Source: Candidatus Acidiferrales bacterium (GTDB taxonomy: Bacteria > Acidobacteriota > Terriglobia > Acidiferrales > UBA7541). From it: a DNA stretch of 64,000 nt. The stretch lies in the NCBI GenBank assembly GCA_035934015.1, contig DASYYH010000008.1:1-64000 (forward strand), written 5' to 3'. A program made the position numbers and the translations under genes. Below the pieces are notes generated by a model. The model saw only the letters and a program-made list of their open reading frames with translations, was not told the DNA's origin and made no database searches. This document shows, one piece after another, positions 5,011 to 31,829 of this stretch (position 1 is its first letter; each line of letters opens with the position of its first letter).

Positions 5011-5751
5011 TTACTTGATTTTTTCGTCTTTTTCGATTTTGCCGTCGCGCAGACGGATGACGCGATGCGCGTGCCGTGCGATGTCGGGTTCGTGTGTGAC
5101 GAGAATAATGGTGTTGCCGCTCTGATGCAGGCGCGCGAACAGAGCCATGATTTCCTCGCCGGTTTGGGAATCGAGGTTTCCCGTTGGTTCATCGGCGAGC
5201 AGAATCGAAGGATGATTCACGAGCGCGCGAGCGATGGCCACGCGCTGGCGCTGGCCGCCGGAAAGTTCATTGGGTTTGTGCATCATGCGTTCGCCGAGTT
5301 CGACCTGCTTGAGAGTTTGCGTGGCGCGTACGCGGCGCTCTTCGGCTGGCGTGCCGTTGTAAATCATGGGCAGTTCGACATTGTGAAGCGCGGTGGCGCG
5401 CGCGAGGAGATTGAAAGTTTGAAAGACGAAGCCGATTTCTTTGTTGCGAATGTAGGCAAGCTCGTCGTCGTCGAGTTCGCTGACAAGGCGCCCGGCGAGC
5501 CAGTAGTGGCCCTTGGTCGGGGAATCGAGGCAGCCGATCAAATTCATTAGCGTGGATTTGCCGGAGCCGGAAGGGCCCATGATGGCGGCGTATTCGCCCT
5601 TGCGAATCTGAAGGTTCGTGCCGCGAAGCGCATGCACTTCCTCCGTGCCCATCGTATAGGTCTTCCACAGGTCTTCGGTGCAGATGACAATGCCGGCATC
5701 AACGAGATCCTGCCGGAACGCCAGGGAAGATGTCGCTTCTTCAACTGCCAT
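5011..5751 (-). CDS. ABC transporter ATP-binding protein, MacB/LolD type
   Basis: A 246-aa ATPase with all ABC motifs: Walker [10 protein letters not shown] (59-67), Q-loop VFQTFNLL, signature [15 protein letters not shown], Walker [14 protein letters not shown] and H-loop VTHE. The sequence is characteristic of the MacB/LolD/FtsE group, which works with FtsX-type permeases in mechanotransmission. The ATG at 5751 has GAGGAG about 10 bases upstream. It follows the MacA-like adaptor gene by 85 bases on the same strand. No FtsX-type permease gene is adjacent; the next gene downstream is the DUF1579 protein. The specific substrate cannot be told. Confidence 0.93.
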
Positions 5752-29329: not shown

Positions 29330-29470
29330 TCAGACGCGGGTAAGGCTGTGGCGTCCCTTTTTTCTGCGTCGGGCAAGAACTTGTTGTCCACTCTTGGTTT
29401 TCATTCGCGCGCGGAATCCGTGCTTCTTGTGGCGGCGGCGAACATGCGGTTGAAAAGTGCGCTTCGGCAA
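29330..29470 (-). CDS. rpmH: 50S ribosomal protein L34
   Basis: A 46-aa protein, [20 protein letters not shown] continuing to [17 protein letters not shown], unmistakable L34. The start is TTG at 29470 with AAGGAG (29478-29483) 7 bases upstream. It is the first gene of the rpmH-rnpA-yidD-yidC order seen near many bacterial origins. A strong promoter lies about 100 bases upstream. Confidence 0.97.
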
Positions 29471-29638: not shown

Positions 29639-29941
29639 TTACTGCAGACGCTGCGTTTTGGCGTCGAAGCCGACGAGCGAATCGAAGATCGCCAGCACGT
29701 GGCGGCGATATTCGAGCATACGCTGGAAAACGACGCGCTGTTCCGGCTGGCGCGTGGCCTCACGATCCCACTTCGCCAGCACGGCGGCAGGGACTTCAAT
29801 GTCGCGGCGAAGCTCTTCGGCGGAATGGCCACGGAGGAAGAGGCCGTAGAAGAAGGCCGCCTCGCGCTGCGGGAATTCGAGCTCGCGCAGAGGGTGGTCC
29901 AGGACCACTTGGATCGCTGCCGGATTGAGCTGTGTCGCCAT
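29639..29941 (-). CDS. Small HTH-like protein upstream of rpmH
   Basis: A 100-aa protein of unknown family. The middle reads RGHSAEELRRDIEVPAAVLAKW, which resembles a simple helix-turn-helix of the transposase/terminase-small-subunit type (G-x-S-A-E-E-I...V...V-x-x-W). The rest is helical. I chose ATG at 29941; a GTG at 29974 is in frame, but a possible promoter (TTGACG, then TAAACT 16 bases on) overlaps that start. It lies 80 bases after the L13e-like gene (47 if the GTG is used) and about 170 bases upstream of rpmH on the same strand. Confidence 0.6.
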   Translation of the reverse strand: MATQLNPAAIQVVLDHPLRELEFPQREAAFFYGLFLRGHSAEELRRDIEVPAAVLAKWDREATRQPEQRVVFQRMLEYRRHVLAIFDSLVGFDAKTQRLQ

Positions 29942-30021: not shown

Positions 30022-30291
30022 CTAGTAGCGGGTCCGGCTGGCGCGCAGGAACATCTGGAGTGCGGTGACATTGGCCTGATCGCTACCTACACGGAGGGCA
30101 TCCACCGGTAAACCAAGGACTTCGGCCTGTTCCAGGCTCAATCCAGCATCGTCAAGTTCCGCTAGACTATAGCCTTCGGCGGGAATCAAGCGATTCCGCG
30201 CCGATCGGTCCACGGGCCGAGGCGGCTGCACCGCCGTGCCGCGCTTGCGGATGCGGTTGAAAAAATCGTCCCAATCTCGGCGGACCCACAT
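30022..30291 (-). CDS. Ribosomal protein L13e-like domain protein
   Basis: An 89-aa protein. The C-terminal half (GYSLAELDDAGLSLEQAEVL then GLPVD and QANVTALQMFL) matches, residue class by residue class, the eukaryotic/archaeal L13e signature G(F/Y)SL-EL--AG-----A---G(I/L)-VD-----QANV--L. The N-terminal half (MWVRRDWDDFFNRIRKRGTA) is basic and unrelated to anything I know. GGGGGAGG lies 5 bases before the ATG at 30291, so translation looks strong. It stands upstream of the HTH-like gene and rpmH. A role in ribosomes or RNA binding is inference only. Confidence 0.7.
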   Translation of the reverse strand: MWVRRDWDDFFNRIRKRGTAVQPPRPVDRSARNRLIPAEGYSLAELDDAGLSLEQAEVLGLPVDALRVGSDQANVTALQMFLRASRTRY

Positions 30292-30534
30292 TGGATCCTC
30301 CCCCTTACCGTCGCAGTTCTTAGATGCGGTTTTTCGATACAGCGTCGCAGGCGCCATGTCCTCATGTCCTGTGGACTGCGCGTGCTAGTGCCGTGAATTG
30401 TAACCCCCGCTGTCAAGAAAAGTCGTTCAGCGTGAGGTCGTGTTTCGATATGGTTAGGAACCATTCCGACACACGAATTTTGGGCCATTTTGTCCTCCGA
30501 ACGGCACGCGGATCTAACCGGTCGCCGCCGTGGC

Positions 30535-30543: not shown

Positions 30544-30575
30544 GAAACCAACGCATTGCAAGGGAATTGTGGGGC

Positions 30576-31829
30576 ATGACGCAACCTGCGGTTGTCATTC
30601 ATTATCATGAACTGTGGCTGAAGGGCCGCAACCGGCGATATTTTGCCTCGCAGCTTTCCCGGGCTGTGCGCGCAGGTTTGGAAGGAATCCCGATTGAAAA
30701 AGTGGAACGGCCGAACGACCGCATCGTCGTGCGCCTCGGGAAAGGGGCGTCGCTCGAAGAGGTGCTTGCGCGCGTGGCGAGAATTACCGGCTTGGCCTAC
30801 TACGCAGTTGCCCAGCCGGTCGAACTGGACCTCGGTGCGCTGTGCCGCGCGGCGTGGAAGGAAATCGAGCCGCTGCAGTTTTCGACATTCGCCATTCGCG
30901 CGCGCCGCAGCGATAAATCCTTTCCCCATCCTAGCTCGGAAATCGAGAGAGTTGTGGGGCGCTACGTGGAAGACCAGCTTGCCGCTGCTGGCCGCCGTGC
31001 GCGCGTGAAATTGAACGATCCAGACGTCACCTGCCGAATCGAGATCACCTCGGGTCCCGCGCTGGTCTACGCGCGGAAAATTCCCGGTCCAGGCGGACTG
31101 CCAGCAAACACGGCGGGAAAGATGATGTGCCTGCTTTCCGGAGGATTCGACTCCGCCGTGGCTGCATACCAGATGATGAAGCGCGGCGCGCATCTTTCGT
31201 TCGCTCATTTTTACGGAACGGGCGCGCGGCCCGGCGAATCGTCCGTGCACGTGGCGCGCGGGCTCGTGGAGAAGCTTGTGCCTTGGCAATTTACGGCGAA
31301 GCTCTATCGGGTGCCGTTCGAGGCCATTCAGCGCGAAATTGTTCGCTATGCGCCGGAGAATTGCCGCGTGCTGCTCTATCGGCGAATGATGCTGCGAATC
31401 GCCGAAGTCTTGGCGAAGCACGATCAGGCGCTGGCACTGATCACAGGCGACAGTCTGGCGCAGGTGGCGTCGCAAACGCTGCGCAACATGATCGCCGTGG
31501 AAGCAGCGGCGAAGCTGCCCGTTTTTCGCCCGCTGGTGGGAACAGACAAAATGGAAATCCTGGAGATCGCGCGAAAAATCGGGACGTACGATATCTCTTC
31601 CGAACCATTCCACGATTGCTGTCCGATTTTCCTGCCGCGCAGCCCTGTGCTGCACGCGAGCGCCGCCGAGTTGGATGCCGCGGAAACGAAACTTGACGTG
31701 CCGCAGCTTGTGCAGCAAGGCGTGAGTTCGGCGATGCTGGAACATTATCGCTATGCCGCCGGGCGCGTGGAACGCAAGGAAGTCCCGCCGCGTTCACAGA
31801 AGCTGAAGCAAGATGCGGCAATCGCGTAA
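30576..31829 (+). CDS. thiI: tRNA 4-thiouridine sulfurtransferase ThiI
   Basis: A 417-aa ThiI. An N-terminal ferredoxin-like/THUMP region (to about 170) binds tRNA. The PP-loop ATPase motif is LLSGGFDSAVAAY, followed by YGTGARPGES, ALITGDSLAQVASQTL and the C-terminal Cys motif HDCCPIFLPRSP. It adenylates U8 of tRNA for thiolation and can feed thiamine thiazole synthesis. The protein lacks the C-terminal rhodanese domain of the Escherichia coli enzyme, as in Bacillus-type ThiI. ATG at 30576 follows an AAGGGA-type SD. It converges on argJ with 39 bases between stops. Confidence 0.94.
   Translation: MTQPAVVIHYHELWLKGRNRRYFASQLSRAVRAGLEGIPIEKVERPNDRIVVRLGKGASLEEVLARVARITGLAYYAVAQPVELDLGALCRAAWKEIEPLQFSTFAIRARRSDKSFPHPSSEIERVVGRYVEDQLAAAGRRARVKLNDPDVTCRIEITSGPALVYARKIPGPGGLPANTAGKMMCLLSGGFDSAVAAYQMMKRGAHLSFAHFYGTGARPGESSVHVARGLVEKLVPWQFTAKLYRVPFEAIQREIVRYAPENCRVLLYRRMMLRIAEVLAKHDQALALITGDSLAQVASQTLRNMIAVEAAAKLPVFRPLVGTDKMEILEIARKIGTYDISSEPFHDCCPIFLPRSPVLHASAAELDAAETKLDVPQLVQQGVSSAMLEHYRYAAGRVERKEVPPRSQKLKQDAAIA

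Follow-up and report, generated by a model that had tools for sequence, protein, structure and literature searches.

Does a bacterium of the Acidobacteriota encode a homologue of L13e (eL13), a protein that is elsewhere found in the ribosomes of archaea and eukaryotes, and what might such a protein do there? The question is raised by a small open reading frame in the stretch of 64,000 nucleotides analyzed here (the window), which belongs to a Candidatus Acidiferrales bacterium. In the 2011 table of PMC3056875 the number of bacterial hits for the L13e family (PF01294) is 0, and PMC3353972 treats L13e among the archaeal ribosomal proteins. A literature search covering titles and the openings of abstracts, with few subscription journals, returned no paper on a bacterial L13e among the matches listed. 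A conserved stand-alone bacterial homologue of eL13, together with a second use of the domain next to DruE-like helicases, would bear on the origin of domain-specific ribosomal proteins and on the question whether the ribosomes of bacteria are able to incorporate proteins of this kind.

Organization of the locus

The gene and its surroundings comprise the following features:

30022..30291, minus strand: coding sequence of the eL13-like protein (P0001, 89 aa), from the reading of the ORF, its relatives and HMM/PDB matches
30297..30304, minus strand: Shine-Dalgarno-like sequence GGGGGAGG, 5 bases 5' of the P0001 ATG, read directly
30247..30282, minus strand: codons 4-15 of P0001, predicted N-terminal helix (AlphaFold2 model and alignment)
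30178..30228, minus strand: codons 22-38 of P0001, PPRPV...NRLIP, aligning with archaeal eL13 in its N-terminal segment (sequence, profile and structure alignment)
30043..30174, minus strand: codons 40-83 of P0001, L13e core GYSLAELDDAG...LGLPVD..R......NV..L (PF01294, NF008914, profile, alignment)
29639..29941, minus strand: P2, downstream gene of 100 aa (ORF)
30567..31829, plus strand: presumed thiI homologue, divergent neighbour of the P0001 gene (ORF; named from the sequence)
29330..29470, minus strand: presumed rpmH (bL34) (ORF; named from the sequence)

The initial annotation described a product of 89 aa with a strong Shine-Dalgarno sequence, and this was borne out by the minus-strand reading, with GGGGGAGG 5 bases before the ATG. 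An alternative in-frame ATG further upstream would give a protein of 111 aa. The shorter form is the better one because similarity among the relatives begins only at about M1-W2. The gene order is the divergent thiI, the P0001 gene and P2, followed by rpmH, rnpA, yidD and yidC. Judging from the sequences, we take thiI to encode a tRNA 4-thiouridine synthetase, and rpmH and the three genes beyond it are likewise named from their sequences. No known RNA leader or riboswitch was found between 28500 and 31000 at E <= 1. A consensus scan of the minus strand revealed no sigma-70-like site between thiI and the P0001 gene; one such site lies between the P0001 gene and P2.

Sequence similarity and predicted fold

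An HMM search against PF01294, as suggested by the initial annotation, returned P0001 with 18.6 bits (E 0.0018), which is below the Pfam gathering score of 24.9. The NCBIfam model of archaeal 50S L13e (NF008914) gave 35.2 bits and an E value of 7.1e-9, again under its cut-off (equivalog, 96). When the sequences of the PDB were searched with phmmer, the top match of P0001 was an archaeal eL13 (9e6q_AH), with E 6.7e-7 over 63 residues without a gap. A profile was built from 22 selected loci of the P0001 family, leaving aside near-duplicates, hits outside the family and L044, which is truncated. Its top match among the PDB sequences was also archaeal eL13 9e6q (E 6.5e-11), and eukaryotic eL13 chains were matched as well, at best with E 1.1e-6. 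All 22 rows match both PF01294 and NF008914 at E <= 1, the best E values being 6.9e-5 and 1.8e-11, respectively.

A short helical pattern, GFSxxELxxAG (GYSLAELDDAG in P0001), forms part of this similarity, and the resemblance to L13e might be a chance one that is restricted to it. The repeats of IcmE/DotG fit the pattern too: they rank second to eL13 both for P0001 (E 3.7e-6) and for the family profile (5e-9), and for a small related protein from another class (G009) they rank first (5.6e-6), with the best eL13 at 0.0023. The short motif alone is thus not specific. However, no individual IcmE stretch is significant by itself, and the G009 protein matches NF008914 at E 3.8e-11. Against chance also stands a shuffling control, in which P0001 scores 33.9 bits with the eL13 segment and the best among 2000 letter shuffles reaches 10.2. 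Furthermore, a profile of the second half of the family, from which the motif is absent, still finds eL13 with E 3.2e-5, behind a repetitive 'CAP REPEAT' chain (2.9e-6). The similarity is therefore not confined to a low-complexity helix pattern. Together with the fold match described below (Z 9.8), these computed results speak strongly against the chance reading, which we consider very improbable indeed, and by the sequence comparisons the resemblance of P0001 to L13e is homology.

The AlphaFold2 model of P0001, calculated from the family alignment, has a pLDDT of 72.7, with residues 41-80 at 77-86. Foldseek identified 58 matches to the PDB at E <= 1e-3, and the 50 listed of these 58 all come from PDB entries of ribosomes or pre-60S particles. 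The eL13 of Pyrobaculum calidifontis (9e6q_AH) ranks first in VIA-align, with a Z score of 9.8 and an rmsd of 1.5 Å, where a Z below about 13 may mean merely an arrangement that is common in helical bundles. This alignment covers 68 residues with 38% identity and model residues 22-89. Sequence and fold results agree on eL13, and P0001 is predicted to have the eL13 fold. The L13e-like domain proposed at the outset thus stands on profile matches, the shuffling control and the match of the predicted fold, and by sequence and model P0001 belongs to the eL13 (L13e) fold family as a bacterial representative.

Comparison with archaeal and eukaryotic eL13

Archaeal eL13 (NF008914, PF01294; 9e6q chain AH) and P0001 share the core fold, the N-terminal segment and the signature G-S-EL-G-VD-R-NV-L, and P0001 is 41% identical to the 9e6q segment. 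The archaeal protein has 157 aa in contrast to the 89 aa of P0001, which remains under the NF008914 equivalog cut-off. In eukaryotic eL13 (RPL13) the core is the same as in the P0001 family, but the chains among the matches listed have 162-270 aa, with long parts on either side of the core.

For the comparison of single residues, 12 sequences were picked by hand, namely archaeal eL13, six members of the P0001 family, the G009 protein and four DruE-linked domains. In the numbering of the 9e6q segment, all 12 rows agree in G19, E24, L25, G29, D43, R46, N53, V54 and L57. Within the 22-row family alignment R67, N74 and L78 are invariant and V75 nearly so; all four are common to archaeal eL13. Two arginines set the family apart. 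The arginine of GRGF and the leading one of VDxRR occur in the eL13 segments of archaea and fungi that were compared, whereas both are replaced in 22/22 family rows, none of which has R or K at the corresponding positions 39 and 66. The second R of VDxRR (R67) and the N are kept in every row. Hallmarks of the family are the conserved W2 and W7, the nearly invariant F10 and the RPPRP segment. The N-terminal helix with the W-W-FF pattern (codons 4-15) is conserved across the bacterial family in the 22-row alignment and lies outside the eL13 match; the model is of low confidence here (block means of pLDDT 61-62). The net charge ranges from +1 to +5 across the 22 rows (+2 in P0001), which is low for a ribosomal protein. 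The median pI of 34 family sequences is 9.98, with a range of 8.38-11.28 (exact duplicates and L004, L006, L008, L010, L011, L012, L014 and L044 were excluded).

Distribution, loss and selection

The family profile was applied to a sample of 250 genomes of the class. It matches 49 of the 56 genomes of the window's family, 56 being the count among the genomes listed in kinship order, seven of which are without a match; a further 180 genomes of the sample that lack a match fall outside this listing. Among the 194 class genomes outside the family a single one matches, weakly (E 0.008) and with an internal stop. In a set of 61 relatives a homologue of P0001 was detected in 31, that is, in 31 of 37 family genomes and in 0 of 24 others. 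A scan of contigs, sensitive to close relatives only, named at least 11 near relatives, all of them Acidobacteriota MAGs; two bear the label Candidatus Acidiferrales, another Terriglobia and another Candidatus Sulfotelmatobacter. Within a single family of the Acidobacteriota the gene is near-core.

The seven family genomes without a match, among those listed, are five of genus g131 as well as G214 and G415 (79% complete). None of the five genomes of g131 has a match. At the one g131 locus that was read (G213; L104:5907-6400), thiI and P2 adjoin and a remnant of the L13e gene is not detectable, so the gene has undergone a clean natural loss there. Dispensability in one genus, the small size and the ribosomal protein fold would suit a stress or hibernation factor linked to translation and bound to the ribosome only in some conditions. 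However, the neighbourhood of the P0001 gene gives no hint of stress, and we regard such a role as improbable.

Selection was estimated from five congeneric genomes. For the P0001 gene dN/dS was 0.012-0.027 and finite in 6/10 pairs, with dS saturated in the remaining four; since five of the six pairs have dS values of 1.7-2.6, only the pair at dS 0.43 is well measured (dN/dS 0.012). The corresponding values of P2 were 0.048-0.086 in 6/10 pairs and 0.085 in the pair at dS 0.43. The P0001 gene is under strong purifying selection. The window genome holds one good match of the P0001 type, the other match having an E value of 0.046, and it yielded no match for 23S rRNA.

Neighbouring genes

The neighbourhood was compared in 48 of the family genomes with a hit, using at most about 1.5 kb on each side, which contig ends cut short in some. 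A divergent thiI is present in 34 of them; P2 lies close by in 23, and rpmH does so in a single one, the window's own. When only loci with at least 1.2 kb of upstream sequence are counted (43/48), thiI is found in 31; with at least 1.2 kb downstream (44/48), P2 is found in 20. Two loci without thiI (L076, L080) have argJ about 1.2 kb upstream. The initial annotation had placed the gene two genes upstream of rpmH and proposed a survey of this position in Acidobacteriota. The position holds for the window genome but not as a conserved linkage (1/48), so that the proximity to rpmH is local to the window genome and a functional link with rpmH was rejected. P2 occurs in 48/61 relatives, some of them from families in which the L13e gene is absent, and is widespread in the class. 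With its presence near the gene in only 23/48 genomes, it was also dismissed as a dedicated partner. Linkage to thiI, P2 and rpmH is partial or rare, and none of these neighbours is therefore a dedicated partner. The P0001 gene sits outside any ribosomal protein operon. The conserved P2 protein begins with FPQREAAFFYGLFLRGHS and its model is all-helical (pLDDT 85.6). It matches nothing in Pfam, and the PDB holds no fold match to the model below E 3.2.

L13e domains beside DruE-like helicases

In the class of G168, 7/148 genomes match the profile of the 12-row alignment, and the five strong ones all belong to genus g70. In these five genomes (G168, G184, G537, G565 and G608) the domain is part of a long ORF, twice in G608. 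The large ORFs ending in the L13e domain are located as follows:

L101:755-3163: large ORF of G608
L057:6805-10695: large ORF of G184
L056:2241-6596: large ORF of G168

At the three loci tested (G168, G184 and G608:C134) the domain is the C-terminus of ORFs of 802-1452 aa, which overlap helicase ORFs, and each helicase ORF matches DruE of PADLOC. At G608:C134, where there are two ORFs, this match lies on the upstream one. The ORFs at G608:C111 are of the same layout as the three DruE-matched loci. In G184 a ZorA-like gene adjoins the L13e-ended ORF, and the large proteins of G184 and G168 also match the sigma-70-like MzaA in PADLOC. The 802-aa protein of G608:C134 gave no PADLOC match, and P0001 had none at E 0.01. 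These loci are possibly an unrecognised Druantia-like defence locus. The main text of PMC12458937, on YprA-family helicases, contains neither 'ribosomal' nor 'L13'.

The 802-aa protein of G608 passes the PF01294 cut-off (28.9 bits vs 24.9), and its L13e domain matches archaeal eL13 with E 1.2e-10. GRGF and VDxRR are both retained in it. No relative of this protein was found on plasmids, and its domain appeared only at E >= 3 there and at E >= 5 in phages. The domain is common to these proteins and P0001, but in the former it forms the C-terminal part of ORFs of 802-1452 aa at putative defence loci. Since it ends large proteins beside DruE-like helicases, L13e in bacteria need not be ribosomal.

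It is therefore well conceivable that the eL13 fold of P0001 is in non-ribosomal use. The protein would then be a small nucleic-acid-binding or protein-docking adaptor, such as a regulator or the cofactor of some helicase or RNA-modifying enzyme, and its conserved surface would bind another partner. The three loci with DruE-like helicases would agree with such an adaptor, as would the loss of two typical eL13 arginines, the low net charge and the frequent divergent arrangement with thiI (34/48). However, the P0001 gene stands alone and has no constant partner (P2 in 23/48, thiI in 34/48, with P2 also widespread by itself), and the whole eL13 domain is kept together with its N-terminal segment.

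Possible role at the ribosome

The reading that we tentatively favour, though short of an even chance, is that P0001 acts at the large ribosomal subunit, or during its assembly, as a small accessory factor that binds rRNA. It is favoured because of the homology to eL13 and because the best fold matches are all ribosome or pre-60S chains. This accessory factor and the non-ribosomal adaptor are nearly even. The single good match in the genome, retention in 49/56 of the family genomes listed, the low dN/dS and the loose ties to neighbours fit a housekeeping protein. In favour of the accessory factor we also count R67, N74, L78 and V75, common to archaeal eL13, and the basic pI. Against it count the non-basic residues in place of the GRGF and VDxRR arginines with the low net charge, the scores below both HMM cut-offs, the position outside a ribosomal protein operon and the occurrence of the L13e domain in non-ribosomal proteins of Acidobacteriota. 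A further point against it is that the eL13 cluster partners eL15 and eL36 are not known as bacterial proteins. In yeast, eL13 belongs to an eL8/eL13/eL15/eL36 cluster on domain I of the LSU rRNA, according to PMC4671574.

For the accessory factor we infer that it binds RNA, that it is located at the ribosome and that its N-terminal helix has a role. Docking on rRNA would involve the eL13 core (GFS-EL-AG-LGLPVD-R-NV-L) together with the RPPRP segment before it, and the bacterial W-W-FF helix would take the place of contacts between archaeal eL13 and other parts. The gene can be lost, as the locus of genus g131 shows. That P0001 is a true bacterial eL13, present in the 50S subunit of the Acidobacteriota family in nearly stoichiometric amounts and acquired from archaea or anciently retained, seems unlikely. 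If it were, these bacteria would carry a ribosome with a protein of archaeal/eukaryotic type.

L13e-like genes outside the family

In samples of the phylum Acidobacteriota, the single query P0001 matched 8/199 genomes, mostly weakly, NF008914 matched 5/199 and the family profile 6/396, the window's own genome included. Two genomes of family f11, in another class, contain small stand-alone L13e-like genes:

L058:6697-6888: stand-alone L13e-like gene of G009
L102, about 5555-5650: stand-alone L13e-like gene of G562

The G562 gene is probably broken, either truncated or frameshifted. The profile of the 12-row alignment matches 2/162 genomes in the class of G009. Treated as chance were the matches in G000:C16, G087, G088, G024 and G026 (the latter four with E 0.0025-0.0052) as well as those in G197, G424, G178, G000:C27, G676 and G706. 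In 14 control genomes outside the Acidobacteriota no match to NF008914 was found; with an E limit of 10, PF01294 gave one match, in Deinobacterium chartae and below the cut-off. Viral contigs, plasmids and phages contained no relative of P0001 or of its profile, and carriage by mobile elements was rejected on these grounds. One genome of the window's family carries a further L13e-like copy, interrupted by an in-frame TGA (G203:C10:44173-44358), which is perhaps a decayed paralogue.
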